This document shows, in pieces, positions 6,624 to 62,346 of a stretch of 64,000 nt of DNA. Location of the stretch: positions 17,629,381 through 17,693,380 of the forward strand of contig NC_136019.1 in NCBI RefSeq assembly GCF_048128805.1, given 5' to 3'. The DNA comes from Centroberyx gerrardi (Eukaryota > Chordata > Actinopteri > Beryciformes > Berycidae). The position numbers and the translations under genes are program-made. Under the pieces are notes generated by a model. That model was not told the DNA's origin, searched no databases, and saw nothing but the letters and a program-made list of their open reading frames with translations. Each line of letters begins with the position of its first letter. Position 1 is the first letter of the stretch.

Positions 6624-7992
6624 ATGATGAGCTATACCTTGGTAACAGCTTTACTTCTCTGCAACCTGAGTAAGTACTGGTATTCAATTATTCACTAACT
6701 GCACCGCTAACTTCTCAGCAATAGAGTAACCCAGCAGAATTGAAACTTATTAATTACTTATTAATACTTAATTTAGAGTTCTCTATATTTCTCCCACTCA
6801 CTCAGAGTGGTTCAGACTGGTCAGCAGATCCGAGCCCTGCTGCATCTCCGGTATGTTCTGCTCTGATGAAACCGCTTCTTTCTGTGATGGTTTTCAAAAA
6901 TTTGAAATGAGATCCAGTGTCTCTACTGTCTTTCTCAAAATCAAGCAAGTGGATTTATCTGACTCTGGGCTGTATTTCTGTGGGTTTTACATAGATGGAC
7001 ACACAGTCATTGCCAATGACTGTCATGACTGTTATGTCTTTGCCGTTATATCTCAAATCCTTACAGTAGCCTCAAACATTAACATACAGATAAAATGTAA
7101 CTAATATGTGGCCTATTTCATCATTGTCAAAATAGGATTATGTGTTATACAGACTAAATACAATCAAGATTAAGTTTTATTGTTATCTTTTTTAAAGGCA
7201 GTGGCGAATGTGATGACGAAGTGGACAAGTGTACAAGTAAGATTCCCACTCCCTCTCATAAAGATTTCTTCCATTGTGTGTGATATTTGTCAATTGTTTG
7301 AAGGTAAAACAGATTATATACAGTCAGTTTTGTCCATTTTAGCATTAGCCAGTTCTAAACCACTAGAGGAGAGTTCAGAGAGTCTAATTTAATAATCCTT
7401 CTTGTAGAAGACCCTGATGGAATAACAAGCCTGGCTTGTGCTTTCCTGGGTGGTGTGACTGTTTTCCTCATTATGGTCATCATCGGTCTGGTTCTCAAAA
7501 TCAGACAACTTGAGATAGGTACATTTTAGGAGCTATCTGTTATATTTTATTGCACATTCTCTTTTAATTTGTGTAAATATAATGGACAAATCCAAAAGTC
7601 ACTGCTGCACCAAAATGCATTGACAACAGCAATGTTTTTGGACAATGATAATTAACTGACTAGACTGATTTTCCCTGTTATTTAGCTGCTGAAGAAGAAA
7701 TGCAGGCACAAACAAGTGAGGTGAATCCAATTTTAAGATTTATTTTTAAATGTTCTATTGTTTAAAAGGTGCTGGAATCTTTTCAAGTCATGATTATGCT
7801 ATAAAAGATGTTTGTTTTTCTGACAAACTCATGTGAGATGTGTGTGATTGTGTGTACTCTTATTTACAGAATCTGGACTCAGATGAGCTGAAGTACGCAG
7901 CACTGAGTTTCCATCCAAAACCAAAGAGAAGCAGGAGGCCCGCATCAGAGAAAGAGGTGGAACCTAATGTTGTGTATGCTGCCACCAGATAG
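6624..7992 (+). pseudogene. Ig-receptor copy 1: V exon truncated at both ends
   Basis: The leader exon (6624-6669, [18 protein letters not shown] donor) is intact, as are the four 3' exons: connector 7198-7236, transmembrane 7408-7518, juxtamembrane 7686-7720, and ITIM tail 7870-7992. The V exon is broken. Its acceptor and first half are gone, and sequence homologous to the other copies starts at about 6791 (CCCACTCACTCAGAGTGG). Its last codons and donor are also lost, since about 7018 jumps directly into what is intronic sequence in the other copies. The surviving part still carries the CDG motif and [10 protein letters not shown]. Skipping the V exon would keep the frame (phase 1 to phase 1), giving a V-less membrane stub, but a pseudogene is more likely. 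Confidence 0.85.
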
Positions 7993-9880
7993 GACCATGA
8001 AGACACTGGAAATGCAACTCAGGGTGGAACTGATGCTTTGTTGCACTATTCTTGTTTTATTGTCACTGGAAGAAAAAAATGTAATAAAGATCCAATGTTC
8101 ATGCAAAATTTACGTGCAGTTTTGATTCTCACCTTGTCAAAATTCTCACTTTGTCAAATCAGCCTTCCTCTAATTTTGCCTAATTTAGATCTTAATCTGA
8201 AAGCAAAAGAATATGATTGATGTTTGAAGTAGGAGGGGTCAGTAATTCCCTTATAGAGAGAGTTAGATGGGCGTCTGCAACAGGGGAGGAGCAAGTTAGG
8301 TAGACATCATTTCTTTGACAGGAAGAGAGAAGAGAGAACTCAAGGAAGAACTGATTAACTTTTCGCACCGATTGGCCAAAGGGGGAGTGTGGCAGTGGGT
8401 GTGGCTTCTCATAAAAAGGCATATAACTTCTGAAAGGACGGCCATGAACTGCTGCCTTGTGCATGCACCATCTGAAACTGCTGGTCTAAAACTCCTGCTC
8501 GTTTGAAAATGTGGCAAATTTAAAAGTTAAACTTTAATGTACTTACTTTGCCAAATATACAGACTATAAAGAATTAACAAAAGTTAATTTGGTCAACTAT
8601 CCGATGTGGAAATGGCATATCTTTACAACTGCTGGCGTTGTTGGAGGTATGCACTCTACTGAGTGCCATCTTTATAGATTTCCGCTGCGGTGACAAACAG
8701 CGCTGTCTATCTCAGCCAGCAAGGTCTCAACCACAGGAAGACTGGCCTTCAGCTCTCTGAATCGTAACCACACACAACAAAGGCCTCGCTGTTTCCACTC
8801 AAGAATGATACTACTTGATCAAAGACAATTTCTTATCTTTTAAAATGTGCAGATCATTTTTGTGTTGCATTTGTAGAGTTAGCGTTGTGTTATTACAGGC
8901 CAAACCAAATACTTCACACAACCTCACTTAACTATCTTTCTGTCTAAACATTGTACATCAGCTTCCGCTTTCAAATTTGCAGCAAAGATCCCCGAGGCAA
9001 CCAACACTGCTACAACCAGATCAACCATGTGGATGTCTGTCTCAACCAGAACAAGATCTTGTAAATTGTGTCAATATGATGGACAAATCCAAAACTTCCT
9101 GCTACGCCAAAATGCATTAACAACAGCAATGTTTTTAATCAATTATTATTGATTATTAAATATTATTATCCATTTCTTTTCAAACAACGTTGTTCCATTC
9201 ATCCCAGACCAAACCAAACACTTCACACAGGCTCACTTCACTCTCTTGTCTAAACATTATGCATCAGCTTCTGCTTTCAGATTTGCAGCAAACATCCCTG
9301 ACGCACCCCAACACTTCTACAACCAGATACGAAAGGCTTACCGTGTGAAAAAGAGATGTCATACACTGTTGGACCTGAATGCAGTGGCCTCGCTGTTTCC
9401 ACAGAACAACAATGATACTACTTGATCAAAGACAATTTCTTTATTTATAAGATGTGCAGTTAATGTTTGTGTTGTATTTGTAGAGATTCATACAATGGAA
9501 ACGTTGTTCCCTTTATCACAGGCCAAACCAAACACTTCACTTCACTCTCTTGTCTAAACATGGTGCATCAGCTGCCGCTTTCAAATCTGCAGCAAAGATG
9601 CCTGATGCAACCCAACACTTCTATAGGCAGATATGAAAGATTTACACTGTGAAAATGAGATGTCATACACATGTACAACTAAACAGAAAATGACTTCATG
9701 ACTTCACAATTTTCTGCCACCAACTGCCACCTCACTCCATCGGCTCAAGTATCAGCACCCTGCTGAGAGGCAGGACCACTGCTATCGCACTCAGACTCAC
9801 TTGTCCTTCAAGCAGCCTAGGGCCCCAAAGACTAACTGCTGCCCCCTGAAGCCTATAAAGGTTGTGATGCCAGGAACTGA
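7993..9880. repeat. 3' flank of copy 1, unit sequence
   Basis: A polyadenylation signal follows the stop. 8192-8520 is a diverged version of the antisense-open block found after the other copies, but 8330-8480 contains a short interspersed segment that recurs near 57760-57900. 8640-9660 holds two diverged copies of a block with a TTTGTAGAG motif followed by a conserved GGCCAAACCAAACACTTCAC stretch. This block also occurs near 35100, 44880, 50060, 50400 and 63250. I do not recognise a gene in it. Confidence 0.6.
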
Positions 9881-12074: not shown

Positions 12075-13652
12075 ATGATGACCTATACCTTGGTAACAGC
12101 TTTACTTCTCTGGAACCTGAGTAAGTACTGATATTCAATTATTCTCAACACTAACTGCATTGCTAACTTCTCATCAATAAAGTAGCCCAGCAGAATTAAA
12201 ACTTATTAATTACCAATTAATAACTTAATTTAGAGGAATTGTTTAGGTTCCTGTTGCGTCATCAACCTATGAATAAATCAGTTGTTCTCTCTGGTGTTTG
12301 TTTCAGGCTGGATCCCTGTCTCGGTTTCTGAGTCTCAGACTGTGGAGGTCCAGCCTGGTGAAGAAGTCACGTTGATGTGCACCAAAATTTCCAGTTCTTC
12401 CACTTACTCAGAGTGGTTCAGATTGGTCAAGAGATCCAAACCCTGCTGCATCTCCACTATGTATGGCTCAAAAGACACTTCATTCTGTGATGGTTTTAAA
12501 AATGGCAAATTTGAAATGACATCCAATGTCTCCACTGTTTTTCTCAAAATCAAGCAAGTGGATTTATCTGACTCTGGACTTTATTTCTGTGGGTTTTATC
12601 TAAGCGGACACACAGTCATTGTCAATGCAACTTATTTAAAGGTTCAAGGTAAGATCATCATTAAGTCTTGTCTGTCTTTTGGTTTTGTCTTTCTCATAAT
12701 GCTTACTGTATATCTCAAATACTCGCAGTAGCCTCAAACATCAATATATAGATAAAAGGTAACTAATATGTGGCCTACTTCATCATTGTCAAAATAGGAT
12801 TATATGTTATACAGTCTAAATAAAATCAAGATGAAGTTTTATTGTTATCTTTTTTGAAGGCAATGCTGAATTTGTTGACGAAGTGGATGACAAGTCTAAA
12901 AGTAAGATTCTCACTCCCTCTCATAAAGATTTCTTTCATTGTGCAGGTTGCTATTTGTCAATTGTTTGAAGGTAAAAGAGCAGTCAGTTTTGTCCATTTT
13001 AGCATTAGCCAGGTCTAAAACCACTAGAAGGGAGTTCAGAGTCTAATTTAATAATCCTTAGTTCTTGTAGAAGAGCCTGATGGAATAACAAGCCTGGCTT
13101 CTGTGATCCTGGGTGGTGTGACTGTTTTCCTTGTTATGGTCATCGTTGGTCTGGTTCTCAAAATCAGGCAACTTCACACAGGTACTTTCTGAGAGCTATA
13201 TGTCATATTTTATTCTCTTTTAATTTGTGTAAATATAATGGACAAATCCAAAAGTCACTGCTGCACCAAAATGCATTGACAACAGCAATGTTTTTGGACA
13301 ATGATAATTAACTGACTGGACTGATTCTGTCTGTTATTTAGCTGCTGAAGAAGAAATGCAGGCACAAACAAGCAAGGTGAATCCAATTTTAAGATTTATT
13401 TTTAAATGGTCTATGGTTTAAAAGGTGCTGGAATCATTTCAAGTCATGATTATGCTACTAAAGATGTTTGTTACTCTGACAAACTCAGCTACGTGAGATG
13501 TGTGTGATTGTGTGTACTCTTATTTACAGAATCTGGACTCAGATGAGCTGAAGTACGCAGCACTGAGTTTCCATCCAAAACCAAAGAGAAGCAGGAGGCC
13601 CGCATCAGAGAAAGAGGTGGAACCTAATGTTGTGTATGCTGCCACCAGATAG
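12075..13652 (+). CDS. Ig-receptor copy 2: single V domain, ITIM-bearing membrane protein
   Basis: Six exons: 12075-12120, 12307-12648, 12860-12901, 13071-13181, 13342-13376 and 13530-13652 encode about 232 residues without interruption. All splice sites are GT-AG. The V domain has the canonical disulfide pair (TLMC ... LYFC), Trp in SEWFRL, and the extra cysteines PCC and FCDG. Two N-glycosylation sites present in the sister copies are missing here (NIS is KIS, NRS is KRS); SNVS and NATY remain. The connector is acidic (EFVDEVDDKSK). The transmembrane exon has about 25 hydrophobic residues from [11 protein letters not shown] on. The tail carries the ITIM LKYAAL and the variant VVYAAT. The juxtamembrane exon (AAEEEMQAQTSK) differs from that of copies 4-8. 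The leader reads LLLWNLS. A poly(A) signal lies at 13742. Role inferred: inhibitory leukocyte receptor that recruits SH2 phosphatases. Confidence 0.88.
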
Positions 13653-14228
13653 GACCATGAAGACACTGGAAATGCAGCTCAGGGTGGAACTGATGCTTTG
13701 TTGCACTATTCTTGTTTTATTGTCACTGGGGAAATTTTTTTAATAAAGATCCAATGTTAATGCAAAATTTGCATCCTCTTGCTAGTGCTGAGGTTTGATT
13801 CTCACCTGTTTATTTATCTTTCTCTCTCTCACTCAAACTAAATCTTCCTCTAATTTTGCCTAGCTTAGACCTCAATCAGATAGCAAAAGAATATGATTGA
13901 TGTGTGACAGAGGAGGGGCCAGTATCGCTGTCCAAATTCCCTTATAGAGAGTGTTAGATGGGCGTCTGCAGCAGGGGAGGAGCAAGTTAGGTAGACATCA
14001 CTTCTTTGACAGGAAGAGACAGCACAGTGTGGCCTGAGAACAACTGAAGTGAAAACCATGAGGCCTGTCATGTCAAAGCTTTGTAACGGGTCAAAGGAAG
14101 CAGTGAATACTGACGTACTTGCTTCTGTTATGTAAACAAAATATGGCCAGTCTCTACATTTGTGTTGAAGTTCTGACATCAGTGTATAAATGGTATTCTA
14201 TAGCGTTTGTATCTGTTATTGAATATTT
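13653..14228 (-). repeat. 3' flank block with antisense open frame, conserved in every unit
   Basis: Downstream of each copy lies a block that stays open on the minus strand for 83-104 codons: 13865-14179, 28961-29260, 34256-34570, 44196-44501, 49315-49566, 57141-57395 and 62618-62872. The translations share SFDMTGLMVFTSVV and SDVYLTCSSPAADAHLTL. No domain is recognised. The conservation may simply reflect recent duplication. An exon or leader of an opposing gene is conceivable, but no GT donor follows the MTGLMVFTSVV segment, so I do not call a gene. Confidence 0.5.
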
Positions 14229-14394
14229 TCCCCATGGATGTGAAGGATTTCTGGGCGAGATCCATGTCTGAACCAGTAGACACTGTGTTCTCCATCACAG
14301 GTCCCAGTTTGTACTGTACAGTTCAGAGTCACAGAGGCTCCTGGCTGGACGGACTCAGACACTGGCTGCTGGACAATCTCTATGAGGTTTGTTC
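14229..14394 (-). pseudogene. Antisense fragment of a different V-type immune receptor (NITR-like)
   Basis: On the minus strand, a TTTCAG acceptor (14395-14400) opens into a reading frame with IEIVQQPVSESVQPGASVTL, then NCTVQTGTCDGEHSVYWFRH. This is a textbook first half of a V-set domain: first cysteine in LNC, Trp in VYWFRH, and an extra CDG cysteine. It is clearly distinct from the array genes. It stops at about 14229, where the shared 3' flank of the unit resumes, so the breakpoint cut the exon in half. The missing half, donor, leader and tail were not found nearby. The wording of the motif resembles teleost novel immune-type receptors. It is a relic, not an expressed gene. Confidence 0.75.
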
Positions 14395-14400
14395 CTGAAA

Positions 14401-15649
14401 CCACAGGAAATAAATTAGCAAAGAAGCTGTTGAACCTAAATGAAAACAGTGACTGTAATATTCCTTATATAACTCTGCTTGGCCTTTCTAATATTTTTAT
14501 CTTATTGGGCAAATAAATATCTTATTTAATTTTAGCTATTCTTCTTCTGCTGTTCTGTTACCTTGAGTAATAGCTAATGTTGATCCGAATATACCAATAA
14601 ATGTATCTGTATTGAAACGTGACTGTCTTTTATGTGCTGAATCAGTTACATGGCACTGATGCCTATGAAGTCAATTCAAAATTAATGGTCATCAATCTGA
14701 AAATGACATTCTTTAAAATATAAATCCCTGTCTTTATGGAGACACTAGGTTTTAATCTGACAGCAGCACATCAATGCAATCATCATATGGCTCTGGGGCT
14801 GGTGTTGACAACTATCTTAAGTGTTCGATTAACTCTGATGGGTGTGGACACTAGAATACTGTCAATTTTTACACTTTCAGTTAAATTAACACTGGAGAGT
14901 TTTCTGCGAGTGACTTCTATGATCATACGATAAAGGTCCCATATTCTACACTTTCCAGTGTTTTATTTTATGTTTTGAGGTCCATTCAAAGCTGTGTGTG
15001 TGGTGTCATGTACCAAAAACACCCTCAATCCATTTTTACACGTTCATTTTCCAGCATCTTTCTGAGCCTTACCAAGAACAGGCTGTTTCTGTCGCTATGC
15101 CTTTAGGGCTCATTAATATTAACAAGCCCTCTGTTCTGATTGGCTAACCGTTTCAAGAGTGAAACATGAGACACCGCAGAGCCGGCAGCTGCAGACAGCG
15201 AGAGGCAGGGAAAACCCTCCGTTAATAAACAATGACACCCGCTCAAACGCTTTGAAAAAAACATTTTGTTAAACTATTATTTCTTACAAAAATGATAATG
15301 AGCGAATCTTTGTGATGCCACAAAGTTACAGAAGTCCAAACGGCTCATTTAGAGGCTTGATTATCTAATATGGATTGTGTGGATTTAGTTGGCTACCGTC
15401 CTTTTGATACTTTCACAGTGTTTAGGTAGCACAATGGTAATTCTAATACCATACACCTATTTGACAATTTATGGAAAAAAAACTATTTTTTAAAATTCTT
15501 TTATTGTATATTTATATCAAAATCACATTTTTACATCTATATTTTCAGTTGATGGAATAGATTTATATACTGTCATAGGTTTTATAAGGCAATTTTAAAT
15601 TTTAAAAATTACCATTGCGTGAAACCATACCAGTATACCCAAAAAGATC
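14401..15649. other. Intergenic, with repeat remnants
   Basis: 14930-15180 resembles a common fish interspersed repeat (AAGGTCCCATATTCTACAC start). 15425-15640 ends in ACCATTGCGTGAAACCATAC, which looks like the terminus of a MITE. The rest is AT-rich with no gene seen. Confidence 0.4.
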
Positions 15650-16080: not shown

Positions 16081-16423
16081 GGCTGGCTTTACACGGTGAA
16101 ACTTTCACGCAACTAGTTGCAGGTTGCAAATTGCATGAAACATAATTTCCATGCAACTTGACAGTTACACGAAGCAATTCAAAAATAATCTAGTCTCATG
16201 CAACACGATTTAATAGTTTATTTCACTAAAATTAGCTAGCTAGATAGGTAATTTTTCATCAGTTGTATTGTTTTCTCGCTAGATTATATCAAGCGGGAAG
16301 TGTCATTGTAACTACATTTGCATCTTTGTATCTTATTTCGTATCGTTTTCTCGCTGGATAATATCAATTCGGACGTGTTGCATCGCTTTTTCTTCTGGCA
16401 CTGGCTGGCTACTTTGTTTCATA

Positions 16424-18224
16424 ATGGCTGTCCCGGAGAATAGGAAGAGAGCTATCGGTGCATTAATGCTTATTGATATGCTGGAGGAAAAAACACGACC
16501 TAAAAAGGCTAAACGTCTGTGGGTGAAGGACTGGCTACTCAAAAGAGAGACCAATGGATCATTTCACACTCTATTCAAGGAGCTCGATCCAATGAGCCTC
16601 CGGTGAGTGCATTCTCCCTTTGATTCAAGGAAAATAAATAAATAAATAGCTCTTTGTTGCCACCTTGTGACATCAGTATGAAATTGTAGCTTGACGTGAT
16701 TGTATTGTAGATAACAGCTCTGATTCTCATCAAAACTTTATATTAAAGCATTAGTGAACATTTGTTTCTAAACAGTTATGTGACCACTATACTTCACAAC
16801 ATGTTAATATTATTTTGTTTTTAACCCATGTAGATCCTGGCTCCGCATGGATCAGAGTACATTCCAGGCTCTGCTAAGTATGGTGGCACCTCACATCACA
16901 AAAACAGACACAGTGATGAGGGAGACCGTCAGCGCTGCAGAGAGACTGGCTGTCACCCTCAGATTTGTGGCAACAGGGGAATCATATGCATCTCTGTCGT
17001 TTGCATTTAGAATAAGTGGTCCTGCCATCTCTGCCATTGTGATTGAGACCTGCAACGCAATCTACAAGGTCTTTTTCCCCCACAATTTTTAACAACTAAT
17101 TTTGTGTAATATTTTGAGCCAAAGCACACATTAACCCTTAAATCAAGAAATTGAATGGGAATATTGTTAATAGAAGAAAAAAAAAAACTAACAGAGGTAT
17201 TGTTGGTTATACTGTATACCGGGATGCATATCTGACTTATAACGATTTGTCTTTCCATCTATGTGCACAAGGTCCTGAGGCCAGTCTATCTGAAAGTGCC
17301 CAGCAGCGGTCCTGAATGGAGAGCAATTGCCCAGGGCTTTGAGGAACAGTGGCAATTTCCCAACTGTTTGGGTGCACTGGATGGGAAGCACATTGTAATG
17401 CAGTCGCCTAAACATAGCGGGTCTCATTTCCGCAACTACAAGGGCACCAACTCAGTCGTGCTCATGGCTCTTGTGGATGCAGACCTAAGATTCATCTACG
17501 TGGATGTGGGCACCAACGGCAGAGTCAGTGATGGTGGTGTATGGAACAAGAGCAACCTTGGGACAGCTCTCCAGAGAGGGACCCTCCGGCTACCAGACCC
17601 AAAACCTCTGCCATCCAGGACCACACCAGTGCCTTATGTGGTGGTAGCTGATGAAGCATTTGCCCTGAAGACAAATGTGATGAAGCCTTATAACAGGGCA
17701 CACCTCAACAGAGAGACCAGAGTTTTCAACTACAGGTCAGTTTTTCACATTAACTTGACTGTATTGTAGTATTTGTGTTAGAAATTTTACTCTGATGACC
17801 AGGATAATTGTGATGCTTTACGTGATTTTATGTTTTGTTCAGGCTTTCGAGAGCGAGGAGATGTGTGGAAAATGCCTTTGGCATCATGGCCAATCGGTGG
17901 AGGGTGTTCCACACCGTTATCCTCCTGGAGCCAGAGAAAGTCAGGGATCTGGTTCTTGCTGCTGTGGCACTGCACAACTACCTCCGGAGCCAGAGGAGCA
18001 CCCGTCAGGTCTACACCCCACCTGAGCTGATGGACAGGGAGGATGTTGTCAGTGGAGAAGTGATCCCTGGGGAGTGGCGTCTGGATGCACCTGCACATTC
18101 TATGCTACGTGTTAGATCAGCCTGCAACAACTACACCACAGCAGCAAAGGAGGTCAGGGAGGAGTTAAAGAACTTCTTCAACAATGAGGGCGCTGTCAGC
18201 TGGCAAGCAAACCTGAACCACTGA
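16424..18224 (+). CDS. Harbinger DDE transposase (HARBI1-like nuclease)
   Basis: Four exons (16424-16602, 16834-17068, 17272-17735, 17843-18224) join in frame, all GT-AG, to give about 419 residues. Exon 2 begins with the family-typical SWLRMDQSTFQALLSMVAP. The catalytic triad is visible: Asp175 in GALDGKHI, Asp265 in VVVADEAFAL, and Glu302 in RRCVENAFGIM. The following NRWRVF ... ALHNYL is the usual C-terminal signature of DDE_Tnp_4. The length is normal for the family. No stop or frameshift was found, so the gene could be recently active. It would act in the nucleus together with the element's MADF protein. Confidence 0.9.
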
Positions 18225-27060: not shown

Positions 27061-28756
27061 ATGATGAGCTATACCTTGGTAACAGCTTTACTTCTCTGCA
27101 ACCTGAGTAAGTACTGGTATTCAATTATTCACTAACTGCATCACTACTCATCAGTACACTGACCAATCACAATTGAAACTTAATCATTTGTTCTCTCTGG
27201 TGTTTGTTTCAGGCTGGATCTCATTTTCTGAGTCTCAGACTGTGGTGGTCCAGCCTGGTGAAGAAGTCACGTTGATGTGCACCAACATTTCCAGTTCTCC
27301 CACTCACTCAGAGTGGTTCAGACTGGTCAACAGATCCAAGCCCTGCTGCATCTCCTCTATGTACTACTCTGATGAAACTGCTTCATTCTGTGATGGTTTT
27401 CACATGGCAAATTTGAAATGAGATCCAACATCTCCACTCTCTCTCTCTCAAAATCAAGCAAGTGGATTTATCTGACTCTGGACTTTATTTCTGTGGGTTT
27501 TACCGAGATGCACAGACCGTCATTGTCAATGCAACATTTTTAAAGGTTCAAGGTAAGATCACCATAAATTCTTGTCTGTCTTTTGGCTCCCATTCATGAC
27601 TATTATGTCTTTATCATGATACTTATGTCTCAAATACTCACAGTAGCCTCAAAACAACATATAGACAAAAAGTAACAGATATGTGGCCTATGTAATTAGT
27701 GTCAAAATAGGATTATGTGCTACACAGTCAAAATAAAATCAAGATGAAGTTTTATTGTCATATTTTTTAAAGGCAATGGCGACTTTGATGACGAAGTGGA
27801 TGACAAGTCTAAAAGCAAGATTCTCCCTCTCTCTCATAAAGATTTCTTACATTGTGCAGATTGGTATTTGTCAATTGTTTGAAGGTAAAACAGATTCTCT
27901 GCAGTCAGTTTTGTCCATTTTAGCATGAGCCAGGTCTAAAACCACTAGAGGAGAGTTCAGAGAGTCTAATTTAATAATCCTTAGTTCTTGTAGAAAAGCC
28001 TGATGGAATAAGAAGTCTGGCTTCTGTGATCCTGGGTGGTGTGACTGTTTTCCTCGTTATGGTCATCGTCGGTCTGGTTCTCAAAATCAGGCAACTTCAG
28101 ACAGGTACTTTCTGAGAGATATGTGTCATATTTTATTGCACATTCTCTTTTAATTTGTGTCAATATGATGGACAAATCCAAAACTTCCTGCTGCACCAAA
28201 ATGCATTGAAAACAGCAATGTTTGTGGACGATGATAATTAACTGACTAGACTGATTTTCCCTGTTATTTAGCTGCTAAAGAAGAACTGCAGCCACAAAGA
28301 AGTGAGGTGAATCCAATTTTAAGATTTACTTTTATATGTTGTATGGTTTAACACTAGTAAGAAAAAAAATGCTATTCGCACACTTCTGTCAGATGCAAAA
28401 GTACTATTTATTCAGCTATATTTTCGGTCAATGGGCCTTACTTTGATGAAGCATTTTCCTCTTTCTAGTGTTATGCCTTATCTTCCAGCACCTTCATTTT
28501 TGGGTGTGCGGTTGATTCTGTATTAAATGTTCTATGGTTTAAAAGGTGCTGGAATCACTTCAAGTCATGATTATGCTACTAAAGATGTTTGTTACTCTGA
28601 CAAACTCAGCAATGTGAAATGTGTTATTTACAGAATCTGGACTCAGATGAGCTGAAGTACGCAGCGCTGAGTTTCCATCCAAAACCAAAGAGAAGCAGGA
28701 GGCCCGCATCAGAGAAAGAGGTGGAACCTAATGTTGTGTATGCTGCCACCAGATAG
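27061..28756 (+). pseudogene. Ig-receptor copy 3: frameshifted V exon
   Basis: Exons: 27061-27106, 27213-27552, 27773-27814, 27994-28104, 28272-28306 and 28634-28756. Compared with copy 8, its closest sister (both start the V exon as WISFSESQTVVVQPG), the V exon has lost one base in GGTTTTCACATGG (about 27398) and gained two in a CT run near 27446. The net shift is +1, so the frame is lost before LYFC. The connector exon also ends in a GC donor (AAAA|GCAAG) instead of GT. The tail exon is intact and nearly identical to the other copies. A non-functional gene is the simplest reading. Confidence 0.85.
28352..28532. mobile_element. Small insertion in intron 5 (MITE-like), shared with copy 8
   Basis: Relative to copies 2 and 4-7, intron 5 contains about 180 extra bases starting ACACTAGTAAGAAAA and including TCTAGTGTTATGCC (short inverted ACACTAG/CTAGTGT). 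The same block lies at 61921-62100 in copy 8 and nowhere else in the array. Confidence 0.65.
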
Positions 28757-32520: not shown

Positions 32521-34038
32521 ATGATGACCCGTACCTTGGTAACAGCTTTACTTCTCTGCAACCTGAGTAAGTACTGGTATTAAATTATCCTCAACACTAA
32601 CTGCATTGTTAACTTCTTACAGTAACCCACCAGAATTGATACTTTTTGATTAGTATCGCTTAGTTTCTCTGATATTTGTTTCAGGTTGGATCCCTGTCTC
32701 AGTTTCTGAGTCTCAGACTGTGGAGGTCCAGCCTGGTGAAGAAGTCACGTTGATGTGCACCAACATTTCCAGTTCTCCCACTTACTCAGAGTGGTACAGA
32801 CTGGTCAACAGATCCAAGCCCTGCTGCATCTCCTCTATGTACAAGTCAGATGACAACGCTTGGTTCTATGATGGTTTTCAAAATGGCAAATTTGAAATGA
32901 GATCCAACATCTCCACTCTCTTTCTGAAAATCAAGCAAGTGGATTTATCTGACTCTGGACTTTATTTCTGTGGGTTTTACAAGGACACACAGACAGTCAT
33001 TGTCAACGCAACTTACTTAAAGGTTCAAGGTAAGATCATCATTGAGCCTTGTCTGTCTTTTGGTTCCAGTTCATGACTGTTATGTCTTTCTCATGATACT
33101 TAGATGTCAAATGTATCCTCACAGAAGCCTCAAAACAACATATAGACAAAAAGTAACTGATATGTGGCCTATTTAATCATTGTCAAAATAGGATTATTTG
33201 TTATACAGTCAAACTAAAATAAAGATGAAGTTTTCCTTTTTTAAAGGCAATGCCGGATTTGATGACGAATTGGATGGCTTGTGTAAAAGTAAGATTCTCC
33301 CTCCCTCCCATAAAGATTTCTTTCATTGCGCAGATTGATATTTGTCAATTGTTTGAACGTAAAACAGCTTATCTCAAGTCAGTTTTGTCCATTTTAGCAT
33401 TAGCCAGGTCTAAAACTACTAGAGGAGAGTTCAGAGAGTCTAATTTATCCTTAGTTCTTGTAGAAAAGCCTGATGGAATAACAAGCCTGGCTTCTGTGAT
33501 CCTGGGTGGTGTGACTGTTTTCCTTGTTATGATCATCATCAGTCTGGTTCTCAAAATCAGGCAACTTCAGACAGGTACCTTCTGAGAGATATGTGTTATT
33601 TTATTGCACATTCTCTTTTAAGTTGTTTCAATAGGATGGACAAATCCAGAACGAAAATGTATTGACAACAGCAAAGTTTTTGGACGATGATAATTGACTG
33701 ACTAGACTGATTCTCTCTGTTATTTAGTTGCTAAAGAAGAACTGCAGCCACAAAGAAGCGAGGTGAATCCAAGTTTAAGATTTACTTTTATATGGTCTAT
33801 GGTTTAAAAGGTGCTGGAATCATTTCAAGTCATGATTATGCTACTAATGATGTTTGTTTCTCTGACAAACTCAGCTATGCGAGATGTGTGTGATTGTGTG
33901 TACTCTTATTTACAGAATCTGGACTCAGATGAGCTGAAGTACGCAGCGCTGAGTTTCCATCCAAAACCAAAGAGAAGCAGGAGGCCCGCATCAGAGAAAG
34001 AGGTGGAACCTAATGTTGTGTATGCTGCCACCAGATAG
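32521..34038 (+). CDS. Ig-receptor copy 4: single V domain, ITIM-bearing membrane protein
   Basis: Exons 32521-32566, 32685-33029, 33247-33288, 33464-33574, 33728-33762 and 33916-34038 encode 233 residues. The signal peptide is about residues 1-24. The V domain has Cys40-Cys111 as the core pair, Trp52, and DSGLYFC at 105-111. The membrane helix is about 150-174, the ITIM is LKYAAL (Tyr202), and the second motif is VVYAAT (Tyr229). Sequons are Asn42, Asn57, Asn90 and Asn123. Two oddities stand out. The extra cysteine before DG is Tyr77 here (FYDG), leaving Cys62/Cys63 without that partner. The connector carries a new Cys143 (ELDGLCK), which could allow a covalent dimer. Introns 1-4 are phase 1 and intron 5 is phase 0. 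A poly(A) signal lies at 34128. Role inferred: inhibitory receptor on leukocytes. Confidence 0.88.
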
Positions 34039-36360: not shown

Positions 36361-36450
36361 TCATTAGTTTAATGAACATTGTGGACGACATCACCCAAAA
36401 GTAAACAAGCACAGATCCTGTACAGACCCACGGCGCGTAAGTTCAATTCA

Positions 36451-37086: not shown

Positions 37087-37139
37087 ACAACCGCATTTAT
37101 GAATGAGAGTGAATGAGAATAAAATTACCAGACTGTATG

Positions 37140-40110
37140 TACGTGTAACCGGTGAAATTCTGCAGCCCCATTCTTGCCTCAGAGGCAAGCGGACGTGTGT
37201 GAGAACAGTCTTTCTCACACAGCGTTGTCAACGCTGTTTTCCCTCTCCGCCGTTTACCCTCTCCGCCGCCTACTCTGCTTCGAAGACACAGGAAATTCCT
37301 GCGTTTTGCCTTTCAGGGGGTAGCTTACGAGTACAACAGACTACCGTTCGGCTACTCCCTGGCCCCCCACACTTTTTCAAAGTGTGTGGACACGCCGCAC
37401 GCACCCCTGCGCCGCCAGGGAATACGGGCCCACTCGAAACAATGGGCTATTTCCCACACAATACAATTGGTGCAGCACTTAACCAGGTTAGGTTTTGCCA
37501 TCAATTGGAGAAAGAGCGCACCCATACCAAGCCAACAGGTGGTGTATTTGGGAGTGCAGCTGGACTCTCTCACACTATGGGCGTGTCTGTCAGATCCCAG
37601 ACAGACGGCCGTGTTGTAGGAGGCGGTACGGCGGGCAAGACAGGGCGGAACAGTGACGGCTTTGACCGTCATGCAGCTCCTGGGTCTCATGGCGGAGGCT
37701 CACCCTGTGGTTCCACTGGGGCTGCTCCATATGACACGCCTTCAGAGATGGTTTGCCAGATTGCATTTGGATCCACAACGTCACAAACATCACATGGTAA
37801 CCATCCCCCAACAGCCAGGGAGGACCTGGCATATTGGGGGACCCCCCAAATACTGGCGAAGGGAACACCGCCGGGGAGAGTGACCTCCTACGTGTCGGTG
37901 TTCACAGATGCCTCCCTGACGGGTTGGGGGGGAACCTGCCTGGGGAAGTCAGTCGGTGGTGTGTGGCCTTCAGGGACAAACCAGCACATCAACCTACTAG
38001 AGTTGACTGCAGTCATGCTGGTCCTACAGCACTTCCTGCCTCTGTTACAGGGGAAGGATGTGCTAGTGAGGACCGACAACCGTTCGACGGTGGCCTACAT
38101 CAACAGACAGGGCCGAGTGCGATCCGCACCGTTGTTGAAGGCTGCTGAGAACCTGTGGCGCTGGGCCACAGAGCACCTCCGTTCTCTCAAGGCGCTGCAT
38201 ATTCCAGGCCTGGAGAACACGGGGGCTGACCTCATATTGAGGGGCGGGCCCCTGGAGGACGAATGGAGATTACATCCCGACATAGTGGACCAGATTTGGT
38301 CCCGATTTGGGAGGGCGGAAGTGGACCTGTTCGCCACCCGGCAGAACGCCCACTGTCCCCTGTGGTTCTCTCTGTTTCCCCGAGACGCTCCCCCATTGGG
38401 GGTGGACGCGTTCGGACACGCGCCATGGCCAGGAAAGCTGCTGTATGCTTTTCCTCCCCTTCGTCTCATTCCTCCCCTGCTGGCGAGAGTGAGAGTGGAG
38501 AGACTGTCGCTCATTCTGGTGGCCCCGGACCGCACAACGGCACCATGGTACGCGGAGATGAGACAGCTGCTGCTGGCTCTGCCCTGGACAGTTCCCCAGT
38601 TTTGGGGGGCATTGTCTCAGGCGAATGGAGCGATAGGCACGATGCCCACCCTGGGACAGCCTCTCATGGTTTGGTTCCTGAGAGGGACAGACTGATGCGC
38701 GCTGGACTGGCTGTGGATGTGGTGCAGACCATCCAGGGCGCGAGGGCTCGATCCACCATTGATAGCTACAAGGCTAAATGGTTGGGCTTTCAGAAATGGT
38801 GCGGGGAGCGGAACATCGATCCTTTGAACTGTTCAATTGGATCTGTTCTCTTTTTCCTCCAGTGCCTGCTGGAAAGCGGGCTGGCGCACTCCACTATTAA
38901 AGTGTATGCGTCGGCAATCTCTTCCTGCCATGAGGGGTTTGGAGAGAGGTCGGTTTTCGGCCACCCCCTCATGAAGCGTTTTGTGCAGGGGGCTAGGAGA
39001 AAACGCCCAGTGGTGCGTTCCACCGCCCCCCCAGTGGGAACTGCCTTTGGTCTTGGCGGCTCTGTCTAAGGAGAACCGATCTTGAACCGATTAGGCAGAC
39101 TTGACCTCAGCTAAGAGAGTGAGTGACTTGTGCGTTCTTTCGGTCCATCCCAGCTGTTTGCTGATACGTGGGGACCTGAGTGGCGCCACACTCAGACAGA
39201 ATCCATCTTTTGCACCCAAGCACATCAATAGTTCTTTTCGGTCTAGGACGATTCAGCTAGAGGCTTTCTATCCTCCATTCCAACGTTTATGCCCCGTGCG
39301 TGCGTTGGCATGTTATGTGGAACGCACAGCCATGGTGAGGCGCACACAGCAGCTTTTTGTGTGCTATGCAGTGTGGACAGTGTGGCTGGCAAGCCCCTGT
39401 CAAAGCAGAGACTCGCCAACTGGCTCTGTGAGGGAATATCACAGGCTTATGTGAAGCCAGGATAAATTGAACACACAACTTCAAATTTATTTTGTGGGGA
39501 CTTTATTTCCTTTTCTGTATAGCAAAAAATGATAAACAAAACAAAAACACATGTAGCAAAAATATACAGCAGTGGCACCTCTATAAACGGAAAAACACAA
39601 ACATATTCACCACACTGCCATTTCAGTTAACAAACAAAAATACAAAACAGCAAACAGAAACAATCAACAAACTGTTGCATACTGAATTCACCGCCAGCAA
39701 ACTGCCTGCACGTGTGCGGTTTTCAGTCCACAACCATCTGCAATCCGTTGTAACCAGTGGCCATCGCCAACGAAAAGTAGCGCATTATACTTCCTGTATT
39801 TTCCCAGCATTCCCTGACCACCCAGCAGGCATAGCGCTCCAGGAAATGGTGAACCCACACCCCCTGCTGTCCAAAGTAAGCATCCCCAGCCAGATCGCAG
39901 CAACGGAGAACTTCATTCACATGGATTTTATTTCCCATAGATATTATTTTACCACCTGGTTACATATGTGCTGGCAGGTAGGGACCCTCCTGCAGTCAAC
40001 ACGGAGTGTGGCTGCGTCGACGGCACTGTTCAGTGGAACAGGTGTGGAGGAGATCTGCACAGCGGCGTCCTGGTCGACACACATGTTCAACTCAACAGAA
40101 AATGACTTCA
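37140..40110 (+). mobile_element. DIRS-like tyrosine-recombinase retrotransposon (fossil)
   Basis: In order: reverse transcriptase remnants (37290-37620), a long RNase H and downstream region (to about 38695; marks include FTDASLTGWGGTCLG, INLLELTAVML and VRTDNRSTVAYINRQGRV), a tyrosine recombinase (about 38700-39450; ARARSTIDSYKAKWLGFQKW, LESGLAHSTIKVYASAISS), and what looks like its C-terminal piece near 40020-40090 (GVEEICTAASWST). This order (RT, RNase H, YR) is characteristic of DIRS. The element is broken, with several breaks, and 39470-39990 separates the last piece as a probable insertion. Terminal repeats were not found. The RNase H region stays open over a long stretch, so this copy is younger than the short DIRS fossils in the gene units. 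Confidence 0.85.
39470..39990. other. Unrecognised insert in the DIRS-like fossil
   Basis: AT-rich at the left, then a more mixed part with minus-strand open frames of about 71 codons (QQGVWVHHFLERYACWVV). I do not recognise the family. A nested DNA element is possible. Confidence 0.35.
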
Positions 40111-42417: not shown

Positions 42418-43975
42418 ATGATGAGCTATACCTTGGTAACAGCTTTACTTCTCTACAACCTGAGTAAGTACTGATATTATATTATTCTCAACACTAACTG
42501 CATCACTAACTTCTCATCAATACAGTAACCCACCAGAATTGATACTTATAAATAATTAATAACTTATCAACCTAGGATTAAATCACTTGTTCTCTCTGGT
42601 GTTTGTTTCAGGCTGGATCCCTGTCTCGGTTTCTGAATCCCAGACTGTGGAGGTCCAGCCTGGTGAAGAAGTCACGTTGATGTGCACCAACATTTCCAGT
42701 TCTCCCACTTACTCAGAGTGGTTCAGACTGGTCAACAGAGCCAAACCCTGCTGCATCTTCTCTATGTCCAAGTCAGATGACGACGCTCGGTTGTGTGATG
42801 GTTTTCAAAATGGCAAATTTGAAATGACATCCAATGTCTCCACTGTCTTTCTCAAAATCAAGCAAGTGGATTTATCTGACTCTGGACTTTATTTCTGTGG
42901 GTTGTACATAGACGGACACACAGTCATTGTCAATGCAACTTATTTAAAGGTTCAAGGTAAGATCATCATTAAGTCTTGTCTATCTTTTGGTTCTAGTTCA
43001 TGACTGTTATGTCTTTCTCATGATACTTATATCTGAAATGTATCCTCAAAGTAACCTCAAAACAACATAAAGACAAACATATGTGGTCTATTTAAATATT
43101 GTCAAAATAGTATTACGTCTAATATAGTCAAAATAAAATCAAGATTAAATTATACCGTCATCTTTTTTAAAGGCAATGGGGACTTTGATGATGAAGAGGA
43201 TGACAAGTCTAAAAGTAAGATTCTCCCTCCCTCTCATAAAGATTTCTTTCATTGCACAGGTTGATATTTGTCACTTGTTTGAAAGTAAAACAGTTTATCT
43301 CAAGTCAGTTTTGTCCATTTCAACATTAGCCAGGTCTAAAACCACTACAGGAGAGTTCAGAGAGTCTAATTTAATAATCCTTAGTTCTTGTAGAAAAGCC
43401 TGATGGAATAACAAGCCTGGCTTCTGTTTTCCTGGGTGGTGTGACTGTTTTCCTCGTTATGGTCATCGTCGGTCTGGTTCTCAAAATCAGCCAACTTCAG
43501 ACAGGTACTTTCTGAGAGCTATCTGTTATATTTTATTGCACATTCTCTTTAAGTTGTGTCAATATGATGGACAAATCCAAAACTTCCTCCTGCACCAAAA
43601 TGCATTGACAACAGCAATGTTTTTAGTCAATGATAATTAACTTATTGGACTGATTCTCTCTGTTATTTAGTTACTAAAGAAGAACTGCAGCCACAAAGGA
43701 ACGAGGTGAATCCAAGTTTAAGATTTATTTTATATGTTCTATGTTTTAAAAGGTGCTGGAATCATTTCAAGTCATGATTATGCTAACGCTAACCTTCTCT
43801 TACAAACCCAGCTATGTGAGATGTGTGTGATTGTGTGTACTCTTATTTACAGAATCTGGACTCAGATGAGCTGAAGTACGCAGCGCTGAGTTTCCATCCA
43901 AAACCAAAGAGAAGCAGGAGGCCTGCATCAGAGAAAGAGGTGGAACCTAATGTTGTGTATGCTGCCACCAGATAG
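42418..43975 (+). CDS. Ig-receptor copy 5: single V domain, ITIM-bearing membrane protein
   Basis: Exons 42418-42463, 42612-42956, 43173-43214, 43394-43504, 43671-43705 and 43853-43975 join without a break to 233 residues. Distinctive points: the loop after PCC reads IFSMSKSDDDARLCDGF, so the FCDG cysteine is kept but the loop is charged. The sequon NRS is NRA, leaving three sites. The CDR3-like end is [13 protein letters not shown], as in copy 6. The transmembrane exon reads SVFLGG, and the usual KIRQLQT is KISQLQT, removing one membrane-proximal basic residue. The juxtamembrane exon starts VTKEELQ. ITIM LKYAAL and VVYAAT are unchanged. A poly(A) signal lies at 44061. It is the near-identical tandem sister of copy 6. 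Confidence 0.88.
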
Positions 43976-47536: not shown

Positions 47537-49077
47537 ATGATGAGCTATACCTTGGTAACAGCTTTACTTCTCTGCAACCTGAGTAAGTACTGATATTATA
47601 TTATTCTCAACACTAACTGCATCACTAACTTCTCATCAATACAGTAACCCACCAGAATTGATACTTATAAATAATTAATAACTTATCAACCTAGGATTAA
47701 ATCACTTGTTCTCTCTGGTGTTTGTTTCAGGCTGGATCCCTGTCTTGGTTTCTGAATCCCAGACTGTGGAGGTCCAGCCTGGTGAAGAAGTCACGTTGAT
47801 GTGCACCAACATTTCCAGTTATCCCACTTACTCAGAGTGGTTCAGACTGGGCAACAGATCCAAGCCCTGCTGCATCTCCACTATGTACAAGTCAGATGAC
47901 AAGGCTTGGTTCTGTGATGGTTTTCAAAATGGCAAATTTGAAATGATATCCAATGTCTCCACTGTCTTTCTCAAAATCGAACATGTGGATTTATCTGACT
48001 CTGGACTTTATTTCTGTGGGTTGTACATAGACGGACACACAGTCATTGTCAATGCAACTTATTTAAAGGTTCAAGGTAAGATCATCATTAAGTCTTGTCT
48101 ATCTTTTAGCTCCCTTTCATGACTGTTATGTCTTTCTCATGATACTTATATCTGAAATGTGTCCTCATAGTAACCTCAAAACAACATAAAGAGAAAATTT
48201 AAATATTGTCAAAATAGGATTGTGTCTTATATAGTCAAAATGAAAATCAAGATGAAATTATATCGTCATCTTTTTTAAAGGCAATGGGGACTTTGATGAC
48301 GAAGGGGATGACAAGTCTAAAAGTAAGATTCTCCCTCCCTCTCATAAAGATTTCATTCATTGCGCAGGTTGATATTTCTCAGTTGTTTGAAAGTAAAACA
48401 GTTTATCTAAAGTCAGTTTTTTCCAACATTAGCCAGGTCTAAAACCACTACAGGAGAGTTCAGAGAGTCTAATTTAATAATCCTTAGTTCTTGTAGAAAA
48501 GCCTGATGGAATAACAAGCCTGGCTTCTGTGATCCTGGGTGGTGTGACTGTTTTCCTCGTTATGATCATCATCAGTCTGGTTCTCAAAATCAGGCAACTT
48601 CAGACAGGTACTTTCTGAGAGCTATCTGTTATATTTTATTGCACATTCTCTTTAAGTTGTGTCAATATGATGGACAAATCCAAAACTTCCTGCTGCACCA
48701 AATGCATTGACAAAAGTGATGTTTTTGGTCAATGATAATTAACTTATTGGACTGATTCTCTCTGTTATTGAGTTACTAAAGAAGAACTGCAGCCACAAAG
48801 GAACAAGGTGAATCCAAGTTTAAGATTTATTTTATATGTTCTATGGTTTAAAAGGTGCTGGAATCATCTCAAGTCATGATTATGCTAACGCTAACCTTCT
48901 CTAACAAACGCAGCTATGTGAGATGTGTGTGATTGTGTGTACTCTTATTTACAGAATCTGGACTCAGATGAGCTGAAGTACGCAGCGCTGAGTTTCCATC
49001 CAAAACCAAAGAGAAGCAGGAGGCCCGCATCAGAGAAAGAGGTGGAACCTAATGTTGTGTATGCTGCCACCAGATAG
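47537..49077 (+). CDS. Ig-receptor copy 6: single V domain, ITIM-bearing membrane protein
   Basis: Exons 47537-47582, 47731-48075, 48281-48322, 48497-48607, 48773-48807 and 48955-49077 give 233 residues. Although a recent tandem sister of copy 5, its V domain differs in the exposed loop ([16 protein letters not shown] against FSMSKSDDDARLCDGF) and in RLGNRSK, ISSYPT and KIEHVDL. All four sequons are kept. The connector reads [11 protein letters not shown]. The acceptor before exon 5 is TTGAG instead of TTTAG, a weaker polypyrimidine context that could favour skipping. Skipping this 35-base exon would shift the tail out of frame and remove both tyrosine motifs. A poly(A) signal lies at 49167. 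Confidence 0.85.
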
Positions 49078-55377: not shown

Positions 55378-56882
55378 ATGATGAGCTATACCTTGGTAAC
55401 AGCTTTACTTCTCTGCAACCTGAGTAAGTACTGATATTCAATTATTCCCAACACTAACTGCATTGCTAACTTCTCATCAATAAAGTATGCCTATGAATAA
55501 ATCAGTTGTTCTCTCTGGTGTTTGTTTCAGGCTGGATCCCTGTCTCGGTTTCTGAGTCTCAGAGTGTGGAGGTCCAGCCTGGTGAAGAAGTCACATTGAT
55601 GTGCACCAACATTTCCAGTTCTTCCACTCACTCAGAGTGGTTCAGATTGGTCAACAGATCCAAACCCTGCTGCATCTCCTCTATCTACGGCTCAAATGAT
55701 GCTTTGTACTGTGATGGTTTTCAAAATGGCAAATTTGAAATGACATCCAATGTCTCCACTCTCTTTCTGAAAATCAAGCAAGTGGATTTATCTGACTCTG
55801 GACTTTATTTCTGTGGGTTTTATCTAAGCGGACACACAGTCATTGTCAATGCAACTTATTTAAAGGTTCAAGGTAAGATCATCATTAAGTCTTGTCTGTC
55901 TTTTGGTTCCCATTCATGACTATTATACCTTTCTCATAATGCTTACTGTATATCTCAAATCCTCGCATTAGCCTCAAACATCAATATATAGATAAAAGGT
56001 AACTAATATGTGGCCTATTTCATCATTGTCAAAATAGAATTATATGTTATACAGTCTAAATAAAATCAAGATGAAGTTTTATTGTTATCTTTTTTGAAGG
56101 CAATGGTGAATTTGTTGACGAAGTGGATGACAAGTCTAAAAGTAAGATTCTCACTCCCTCTCATAAAGATTTCTTTCATTCTGCAGGTTGCTATTTGTCA
56201 GTTGTTTGAAGGTAAAACAGATTATATCGGTATATAGGTCTAAAACCACTAGAAGAGAGTTCAGAGTCTAATTTAATAATCCTTAGTTCTTGTAGAAGAG
56301 TCTGATGGAATAACAAGTCTGGCTTCTGTGATCCTGGGTGGTGTGACTGTTTTCCTTGTTATGGTCATCGTCGGTCTGGTTCTCAAAATCAGGCAACTTC
56401 AGACAGGTACTTTCTGAGAGCTATATGTCATATTTTATTGCACATTCTCTTTTAATTTGTGTAAATATAATGGACAAATCCAAGTCACTGCTGCACAAAA
56501 ATGCATTGACAACAGCAATGTTTTTGGACAATGATAATTAACTGACTGGACTGATTTTCCCTGTTATTTAGCTGCTAAAGAAGAAATGCAGCCTCAAAGA
56601 ACTGAGGTGAATCCAATTTTAAGATTTATTTTTAAATGTTCTATGGTTTAAAAGGTGCTGGAATCATTTCAAGTCATGATTATGATACTAATGATGTTTG
56701 TTACTCTGACAAACTCAGCTATGTGAGATGTGTGTGATTGTGTGTACTCTTATTTACAGAATCTGGACTCAGATGAGCTGAAGTACGCAGCGCTGAGTTT
56801 CCATCCAAAGCCAAAGAGAAGCAGGAGGCCCGCATCAGAGAAAGAGGTGGAACCTAATGTTGTGTATGCTGCCACCAGATAG
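55378..56882 (+). CDS. Ig-receptor copy 7: single V domain, ITIM-bearing membrane protein
   Basis: Exons 55378-55423, 55531-55872, 56100-56141, 56296-56406, 56572-56606 and 56760-56882 encode 232 residues. The closest relative is copy 2: the V exon is one codon shorter than in copies 4-6 and the CDR3-like end is [13 protein letters not shown]. Unlike copy 2 it keeps all sequons (TNISS, VNRSK, SNVS, NATY). The loop reads SSIYGSNDALYCDGF with the extra cysteine kept. The connector is EFVDEVDDKSK and the juxtamembrane exon AAKEEMQPQRTE, intermediate between copy 2 and copies 4-8. ITIM and VVYAAT are unchanged. A poly(A) signal lies at 56973. It should be a functional type I inhibitory receptor. 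Confidence 0.88.
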
Positions 56883-60235: not shown

Positions 60236-60557
60236 TAAACCACCTCTGTCCAATGAGGTAATTTTCAAAACTGAGGATAGCAAAACTTGGGACTCTTCCT
60301 TGTAGTGTTGAGAATCGATTTGACTTTTTTTTGGTCACATGTTGGAACATGAGCAAGAATTATCTAATAATATGGGCTGAAGAATGACTTTGTCTTGTAC
60401 TATAAACTTGATAACTCACCCAATTATCCAAACATATTTATGTGGCCAGTGTCAGCGAACAAATGAACAGCATAAAACGCCCCGCCTCTTTCCATTGAAA
60501 CTCCCTCACTGGAGTTCAGTTATATTAAGAGCCATTGCAGTGATACAGTCATGCACA

Positions 60558-62346
60558 ATGATGAGCTATACCTTGGTAACAGCTTTACTTCTCTGCAACC
60601 TGAGTAAGTACTGATATTCAATTATTCACTAATTGCATTGCTAGCTAATCATCAATACAGTAACCCTCCAGAATTGAAACTTAATAGTTACTTATTAATA
60701 ACTTAATGTAGAGGCATTGTTTAGGTTTCGATTGCGTTATCAACCTAGGAATAAATCACTTGTTCTCTCTGGTGTTTGTTTCAGGCTGGATCTCATTTTC
60801 TGAGTCTCAGACTGTGGTGGTCCAGCCTGGTGAAGAAGTCACGTTGACGTGCACCAACATTTCCAGTTCTCCCACTCACTCAGAGTGGTTCAGACTGGTC
60901 AACAGATCCAAGCCCTGCTGCATCTCCTCTATGTACGACTCTGATGAAACTGCTTCGTTCTGTGATGGTTTTCAAAATGGCAAATTTGAAATGAGATCCA
61001 ATGTCTCCACTCTCTTTCTCAAAATCAAGCAAGTGGATTTATCTGACTCTGGACTTTATTTCTGTGGGTTTTATCGAGACACACAGACCGTCATTGTCAA
61101 TGCAACATTTTTAAAGGTTCAAGGTAAGATCATCATAAATTCTTGTCTGTCTTTTGGTTCCCATTCATGACTATTATGTCTTTCTCGTGATACTTATGTC
61201 TCAAATCCTCACAGTAGCCTCAAAACAACATATAGACAAAAAGTAACAGATATGTGGCCTATGTAATTAGTGTCAAAATAGGATTATGTGCTACACAGTC
61301 AAAATAAAATCAAGATGAAGTTTTATTGTCATATTTTTTAAAGGCAATGGCGACTTTGATGACGAAGTGGATGACAAGTCTAAAAGTAAGATTCTCCCTC
61401 TCTCTCATAAAGATTTCTTACATTGTGCAGATTGATATTTGTCAATTGTTTGAAGGTAAAACAGATTATCTGCAGTCAGTTTTGTCCATTTTAGCATGAG
61501 CCAGGTCTAAAACCACTAAAGGAGAGTTCAGAGAGTCTAATATAATAATCCTTAGTTCCTGTAGAAGAGTCTGATGGAATAACAAGTCTGGCTTCTGTGA
61601 TCCTGGGTGGTGTGACTGTTTTCCTCGTTATGGTCATCGTCGGTCTGGTTCTCAAAATCAGGCAACTTCAGACAGGTACCTTCTGAGAGATATGTGTTAT
61701 ATTTTGTTGCACATTCTCTTTTAATTTGTGTCAATATGATGGACAAATCCAAAACTTCCTGCTGCACCAAAATGCATTGAAAACAGCAATGTTTGTGGAC
61801 GATGATAATTAACTGACTAGACTGATTTTCCCTGTTATTTAGCTGCTAAAGAAGAACTGCAGCCACAAAGAAGCGAGGTGAATCCAATTTTAAGATTTAC
61901 TTTTATATGTTCTCTGGTTTAACACTAGAAAAAGAAAAAAAATGCTATCCGCACACTTCTGTCAGATGCAAAAGTACTATTTATTCAGGTATGTTTTCGG
62001 TCAATGGGCCTTACTTTGATGAAGCATTTTCCTCTTTCTAGTGTTATGCCTTATCTTCCCTCACCTTCATTTTTGGGTGTGCAGTTGATTCTGTATTAAA
62101 TGTTCTATGGTTTAAAAGGTGCTGGAATAAATTCAAGTCATGATTATGCTACTAAAGATGTTTGTTACTCTGACAAACTCAGCTACGTGAGATGTGTGTG
62201 ATTGTGTGTACTCTTATTTACAGAATCTGGACTCAGATGAGCTGAAGTACGCAGCGCTGAGTTTCCATCCAAAGCCAAAGAGAAGCAGGAGGCCCGCATC
62301 AGAGAAAGAGGTGGAACCTAATGTTGTGTATGCTGCCACCAGATAG
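60558..62346 (+). CDS. Ig-receptor copy 8: single V domain, ITIM-bearing membrane protein
   Basis: Exons 60558-60603, 60785-61123, 61344-61385, 61565-61675, 61843-61877 and 62224-62346 give 231 residues. The V exon lacks two codons at its start (WISFSESQTVVVQPG), a signature shared only with pseudogene copy 3. The V core reads TLTC ... LYFC, and the loop [16 protein letters not shown] keeps the extra cysteines. The CDR3-like end is FYRDTQTVIVNATF, nearer to copy 4 (FYKDTQTV) than to copies 2 and 5-7. Four sequons are present. The connector is DFDDEVDDKSK and the tail is standard, with LKYAAL and VVYAAT. Intron 5 is lengthened by the small insertion at 61921-62100. It is the functional counterpart of copy 3. 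Confidence 0.88.
61921..62100. mobile_element. Small MITE-like insertion in intron 5 of copy 8
   Basis: Same block and same position as 28352-28532 in copy 3, with the inverted ACACTAG/CTAGTGT ends. Confidence 0.65.

Follow-up and report, generated by a model that had tools for sequence, protein, structure and literature searches.

The receptor systems of fish that come closest to the locus described here are the NITRs and the NILTs. According to the available part of the medaka NITR paper (PMC2442602), NITR V domains end in a J motif (FGXGTXLXV) or a J-like motif (FGXG or TXLX(V/L/I)); a six-cysteine I domain is typical of two-domain NITRs, and one-V NITRs without an I domain exist. NILT genes, in the part of PMC3022915 at hand, have six exons, with introns 1 to 4 in phase 1 and intron 5 in phase 0 (the exons of Dre-NILT1 measure 40/345/117/117/35/132 nt). 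The Ig domains of salmon NILTs carry CX3C, CX6C, or CX7C, and NILT1-6 possess four to five immunoreceptor tyrosine-based inhibitory motifs (ITIMs), Dre-NILT1 one (PMC3022915). Here, we analyzed a window of 64,000 nucleotides from the fish Centroberyx gerrardi (C23:17629381-17693380, C23 denoting contig NC_136019.1) and searched the genome (778.9 Mb in 278 contigs) for relatives of its genes. The window contains a tandem array of genes encoding one V domain and an ITIM-bearing tail. Judged from its sequence and surroundings, this array probably represents a lineage-specific, one-V, I-domain-less, all-inhibitory, and divergent NITR-type subfamily, which arose within or beside the NITR cluster.

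Window positions 6624-62346 hold eight plus-strand units of one six-exon gene, whose starts are 5.1 to 15 kb apart. A preliminary description had reported an eight-copy array on one strand, which is accurate for the window but not for the full extent, because nine further copies follow downstream on the same strand. The total on C23 is 17, with 14 copies open and three (1, 3, and 13) broken. A genome search with the array tail at E values up to 1 returned exactly 17 places, all in the array; the candidates that it scored were the 17 from its initial stage, and more distant tails would escape it, as NITR tails did. Aligned to copies 4 and 6, whose exons served as references, the window copies resolve into exons for, in order, a leader, one V domain, a connector that is short and acidic, the membrane span, and the tail (two exons). 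In the six open window copies, exon sizes are 46 / 339-345 / 42 / 111 / 35 / 123 nt, introns 1 to 4 are in phase 1 and intron 5 is in phase 0, borders are GT-AG, and the encoded proteins have 231 to 233 residues. This mapping bore out the common exon structure and phases proposed earlier, along with the division into six open and two broken copies.

The array lies next to a NITR cluster. The open frames upstream of it encode V and I domains and contain J motifs, FGNGT among them; we call these genes NITRs on the basis of the J and I-domain features given in the available part of PMC2442602. An I-domain search of the genome yielded 55 matches (150 of 377 candidates scored), including at least 30 strong ones at C23:17.36-17.63 Mb, ending beside the array, and at least four on C16 at 21.07-21.09 Mb. 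Twenty matches were weak (E 1.7e-5 or worse), and three of these fell on V domains of the array itself (26-31% identity). Immediately before the window, a minus-strand NITR has open V and I frames; its V frame, the nearest NITR V frame to the array, starts at C23:17628587, which leaves 7.4 kb to copy 1. A NITR relic is also present inside the array, between copies 2 and 3: a truncated I-domain exon at window positions 14219-14464 on the minus strand, with an I-domain match (E 7.1e-18) at C23:17643599-17643775, corresponding to window 14219-14395. Most of this exon belongs to a 0.7-kb stretch on the same strand, 14229-14931, with 92% identity to the upstream minus-strand NITR gene mentioned above. 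The relic comprises the first half of the I-domain exon plus flanking DNA and ends where the homology of unit 2 ends. Zebrafish has two NITR clusters, the larger of which, on chromosome 7, lies beside men1, as given in the same part of the medaka paper (PMC2442602); here, men1 maps to 20.93 Mb on C23, at a distance of 3.2 Mb past the array. A second, small NITR cluster at C16:21.06-21.08 Mb parallels the zebrafish two-cluster layout.

About 224 kb upstream of the array, a one-V NITR (L011 positions 6427-7706, C23:17.412 Mb) has the structure leader/V/connector/transmembrane/C1/C2 with phases 1,1,1,1,0 and an FGPGT motif, as read by eye from the sequence. The earlier view that clustered inhibitory receptors of fish differ from the array in architecture was not borne out, since the six-exon 1-1-1-1-0 layout is common to this one-V NITR and to published NILTs. 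Because the array, the one-V NITR, and salmon NILTs all have this exon plan, the plan alone does not discriminate between them. Taken together, the array resembles one-V NITRs in its NITR-cluster location, its six-exon plan with phases, its tail with an ITIM plus an ITIM-like motif, and its J-like V end. It differs from them in lacking FGxG, in having CC...C cysteines and a short acidic connector, and in a V domain that is not nested among the sampled NITR V domains.

NITR tails of the same genome start with a phase-0 exon, as the array tail does. In leave-one-out profiles built from six representatives of 17 NITR tail exons, the array tail scored 31-41 bits and ranked above the left-out NITR tail in four of six cases; an earlier run with five NITR tails gave three of five. 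The sole control, the tail of a family on C3, reached 14-21 bits on NITR tail profiles. Pairwise alignment gave the array tail scores of 46-61 against the six NITR tails versus 44 against the C3 tail. The region C3:8276000-8285000 contains two near-identical one-V frames together with a tail exon bearing an ITIM (DEDGVCYAAL) and apparently represents a further inhibitory family with one V domain.

The protein encoded by the array can be described part by part. The V domain of copy 4, the sole copy scanned, matched Pfam V-set at 6.3e-12, and an ITIM, LKYAAL or LKYTAL, is present in all 14 open copies (LKYAAL in all eight window copies), in agreement with the single V domain and ITIM tail described before. 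As had also been stated, the full J motif is missing, with FGxG in 0 of 14 open copies, but the V end carries the half motif TxLx(V/I) in 14 of 14, an element that by itself is J-like in the sense published for NITRs. One C16 NITR V domain likewise lacks FGxG and ends STYLLLKG. No I-domain exon was found in the array copies. In strand C of every open copy, the core Trp precedes F or Y and next R, with no adjoining cysteine, and the V domains have an extra cysteine group (CC then C) with 12-14 residues between the extra cysteines, one of which is replaced by Tyr in copy 4. Of the six open window copies, four have FDDE, the form named in the preliminary description, in the Asp/Glu-rich connector of about 14 residues, and two have FVDE. 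Across the 24 scanned residues of the membrane span, the sole charge in the 14 open copies is a Lys at the inner border; no open copy has a charge inside the span that would suggest an activating partner. Inhibitory NITRs, too, combine an uncharged membrane span with an ITIM or ITIM-like tail. The tail ends VVYAATR, and this second tyrosine is kept in 13 of 14 open copies. In copy 9 (C23:17697103-17697225) it is replaced by Cys (VVCAATR), and the ITIM is kept. At the protein level, the tail exons of the eight window copies are identical; their differences lie at three third-codon positions.

Sequence variation is unevenly distributed over the gene. Among the six open window copies, identity is 99.0% in the tail exon, 91.6% in the V exon, 85.4-92.5% in introns, and 90.5% in the 400 nt after the stop codon. 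Over 14 copies, 27 of 31 columns vary in the loops compared with 27 of 83 in the framework (Fisher p 1.3e-7, columns taken as independent). For the 14 open copies, the ratio of nonsynonymous to synonymous differences (pN/pS), pooled from related pairs and with loop borders chosen after the alignment was seen, reaches 1.07 in loops resembling complementarity-determining regions (CDR-like loops), compared with 0.57 in the membrane span, 0.42 in the framework, and 0.30 in the tail. The loops thus vary freely over a constrained framework and tail. Since pN/pS pools related pairs and gene conversion among the copies is likely, we make no claim of selection above 1. Between-copy distances correlate at -0.43 to 0.37 across segments (V versus 3' flank, 0.12; V versus tail exon, -0.32), and this weak correlation fits copies exchanging pieces. 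Synonymous change is low in the tail exon (pS 0.046 versus 0.085 in the framework), which suggests that homogenization may add to tail identity besides constraint.

Relationships of the V domain were addressed by searches, profiles, and trees. A PDB search with an array V domain gave NITR10/11 chains as the best natural non-antibody entries among the best 60 of 1967 matches; NITR10/11 are catfish receptors, as named in the accessible part of PMC2442602. The V search of the genome returned 74 matches (150 of 297 candidates scored), with NITR V domains of the adjacent cluster as the best outside the array (44.3 bits, 33%), followed by C7 (37.3), C13 (35.0), and C3 (34.7 bits) mixed with weaker NITR V matches. 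We take the C13 rows to be T-cell receptor-like. A profile of the 14 open array V domains gave 49.6 bits for the best NITR V and 11.4-43.5 for the others, 43.7 for C3, 17.8-39.1 for C13, 37.1 for C7, 17.9-28.8 for NITR I, and 0.5-12.8 for human pIgR domains, with D1 at 12.8. Trees covered NITR V and I domains, C3 and C7 rows, the C13 rows, and human pIgR; the second and third used five of the 14 array rows, and the third was built without NITR V row L021p, which has an internal gap, and without one near-duplicate C3 row, with C16 NITRs added. These comparisons, which the preliminary description had proposed, showed no clear nesting of the array in NITR V/I, C3, C7, C13, or human pIgR. The array V domains stay together as a single clade in all three trees, with a long stem of 1.15-1.59 changes per column. 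In the third, the nine NITR V rows group with a support of 30/7, and p is 0.52 when they are held together. As these rows hardly cluster among themselves, the array's lack of nesting is weak evidence, and the V domain does not settle membership in one direction or the other; we dropped V phylogeny as a classifier, none of the three trees having placed the array.

Several observations speak against an origin from NITRs. Besides the missing FGxG and I domain and the additional cysteines, seven NITR V domains group without the array in the first two trees (support 90/87 and 81/80), and in the third the array's partner is a long C7 row (81/84). Approximately unbiased (AU) tests reject no placement, neither with NITR V (p 0.21) nor with C3 (0.30), C13 (0.24), or pIgR (0.25); for NITR V, p across the three trees was 0.21, 0.26, and 0.43. 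In the profile comparison the C3 V family comes near the best NITR V, and the gapped NITR V row scores under human pIgR D1. The C3 tail, a single non-NITR control, once beat the left-out NITR tail (14.2 versus 13.8 bits), and the genome search with the array tail retrieved no NITR tail among its 17 scored candidates at E up to 1. The long-stemmed V clade, the absence of FGxG, a CC...C group absent from the NITR V domains read, and the high C3 V score would all suit a separate family with a V domain not derived from NITRs that either gained NITR-type tail exons by exon shuffling or is a mere neighbor of the cluster. We consider such a family unlikely given the NITR location and relic, the common exon plan and tail, and the poor clustering of the NITR V rows, which makes non-nesting weak evidence. 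A doubtful scenario, too, is that a non-NITR V gained NITR signaling exons at the NITR locus and then spread to 17 copies with freely varying loops and a near-unchanged tail; if true, this family would be a fish counterpart in organization to KIR-like birth-and-death repertoires. What remains of the earlier proposal is that the V domains form a clade of their own, nested in no sampled family, whereas location, relic, and NITR-type tail make a NITR offshoot the likeliest identity of the array.

Assignment to other receptor families fits less of the evidence. The array shares with NILTs the exon number and phases, most exon sizes (46/345/42/111/35/123 nt compared with those of Dre-NILT1; PMC3022915), one V domain, an ITIM, and clustered genes. 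Nevertheless, membership in this TREM/NKp44-like group is quite improbable: the spacing of 12-14 residues between the extra cysteines contrasts with the CX3C, CX6C, or CX7C pairs reported for salmon in the available part of PMC3022915, there is one ITIM, and location and tail are of the NITR type. Moreover, pIgR, CD300, NKp44, and TREM come together in the PDB matches of a pIgR query, and the best 60 of 1967 matches of the array V include none of them. An affiliation with CD300/pIgR-type receptors, with which (and with TREM) the array shares a V-set ectodomain and, in the case of some CD300 members, one V domain plus an ITIM tail, is hardly credible, because no open copy has a cysteine beside the core Trp, whereas the second disulfide of CD300/pIgR domains starts at the WC of strand C, and because the array profile gives human pIgR D1 12.8 bits and the best NITR V 49.6. 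With DICPs the array has in common that they, too, are inhibitory Ig receptors of fish. With three of 17 copies broken, the array might also be regarded as a decaying, non-functional duplication, but this is very unlikely, as 14 copies have open frames and GT-AG borders, constraint is seen in framework and tail, and each of the eight window copies has a hexamer resembling a poly(A) signal (AATAAA or ATTAAA) that begins 82-90 nt past the stop codon, for instance at 62435-62440 (plus strand) after copy 8. In the literature searched, no paper was recognized as describing the array, and five family peptides had no match in paper text, where sequences rarely stand in running text.

Exon mapping placed all window copies on the plus strand. 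The open ones are copy 2 (12075-12120, 12307-12648, 12860-12901, 13071-13181, 13342-13376, 13530-13652), copy 4 (32521-32566, 32685-33029, 33247-33288, 33464-33574, 33728-33762, 33916-34038), copy 5 (42418-42463, 42612-42956, 43173-43214, 43394-43504, 43671-43705, 43853-43975), copy 6 (47537-47582, 47731-48075, 48281-48322, 48497-48607, 48773-48807, 48955-49077), copy 7 (55378-55423, 55531-55872, 56100-56141, 56296-56406, 56572-56606, 56760-56882), and copy 8 (60558-60603, 60785-61123, 61344-61385, 61565-61675, 61843-61877, 62224-62346). Broken copy 1 (6624-6669, V remnant 6789-7021, 7198-7236, 7408-7518, 7686-7720, 7870-7992) lacks the acceptor, the 5' part, and the donor end of its V exon and has an intact tail exon. 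In copy 3 (27061-27106, 27213-27552, 27773-27814, 27994-28104, 28272-28306, 28634-28756), the V exon is frameshifted with in-frame stops, and GC replaces GT after exon 3. V exons as rearranging segments were rejected, as none of five spellings of the recombination signal sequence heptamer occurred within 60 nt of any of 15 V ends. A minus-strand open reading frame of about 110 codons after the copies (e.g., 13865-14197) was set aside as a gene because the one scanned had no Pfam match and stops or frameshifts interrupt it in copies 1, 5, 7, and 8. Among 104 pattern matches in a search for viral relatives, none was confirmed.

Sequences resembling mobile elements lie in and before the array. 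BED zinc-finger frames, as in hAT-type transposons, occupy both strands at 2611-4753, the plus-strand one scoring under the curated cut-off. A Harbinger-like transposon at 16283-18224, between copies 2 and 3, contains a DDE_Tnp_4 frame (17236-17769, 8.5e-19), and a sequence resembling long interspersed nuclear elements precedes copy 4 at 31049-32112, with an RVT_1 reverse transcriptase fragment at 31049-31438 (8.7e-11). Between copies 4 and 5, GC-rich DNA at 37103-39454 is perhaps a DIRS-like retroelement, having one RNase H-like match and, under its cut-off, another of the phage-integrase type. Downstream flanking frames with RRM, FHA, and KH domains look like ordinary genes, presumably of the RBM4, TIFA, and FMR1 types. 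From C23:17789107 onward, some 47 kb downstream of the final array copy, a 610-residue open frame looks like that of a fish NACHT/NLR protein.

ITIM receptors act by ligand-dependent inhibition through SHP phosphatases, and by analogy the array receptors likely inhibit in this way upon ligand binding. If expressed, each gene would give rise to a type I membrane protein presenting its V domain on a short acidic stalk, with the variable CDR-like loops predicted to contact a ligand. Binding may then lead a Src-family kinase to phosphorylate the LKYAAL ITIM, perhaps also the ITIM-like VVYAAT, and the phosphorylated tail might recruit SHP-1/SHP-2, damping activation in a lymphoid or natural killer (NK)-like carrier cell, a cell type that we guess from NITR biology. 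Fish LITRs and gibel carp DICPs were reported to recruit SHP1 (in the available part of PMC8662705), and zebrafish nitr genes served as markers of NK-like cells (in that of PMC5340972). Unequal crossover or conversion would copy the unit, so that loops may diversify and framework and tail stay fixed.

As an immune array, the locus is of a kind ordinary in fish, in a form that is informative, and most likely it is a NITR-type subfamily. As a NITR offshoot, it would mean that the NITR locus of one fish has grown by 17 copies, which could escape recognition as NITR-related because they lack FGxG and an I domain. The array parts the two halves of a receptor, with loops free to vary and a tail near-unchanged across copies, and it may thus offer a compact system to ask what NK-type inhibitory receptors of fish recognize and how such arrays turn over.

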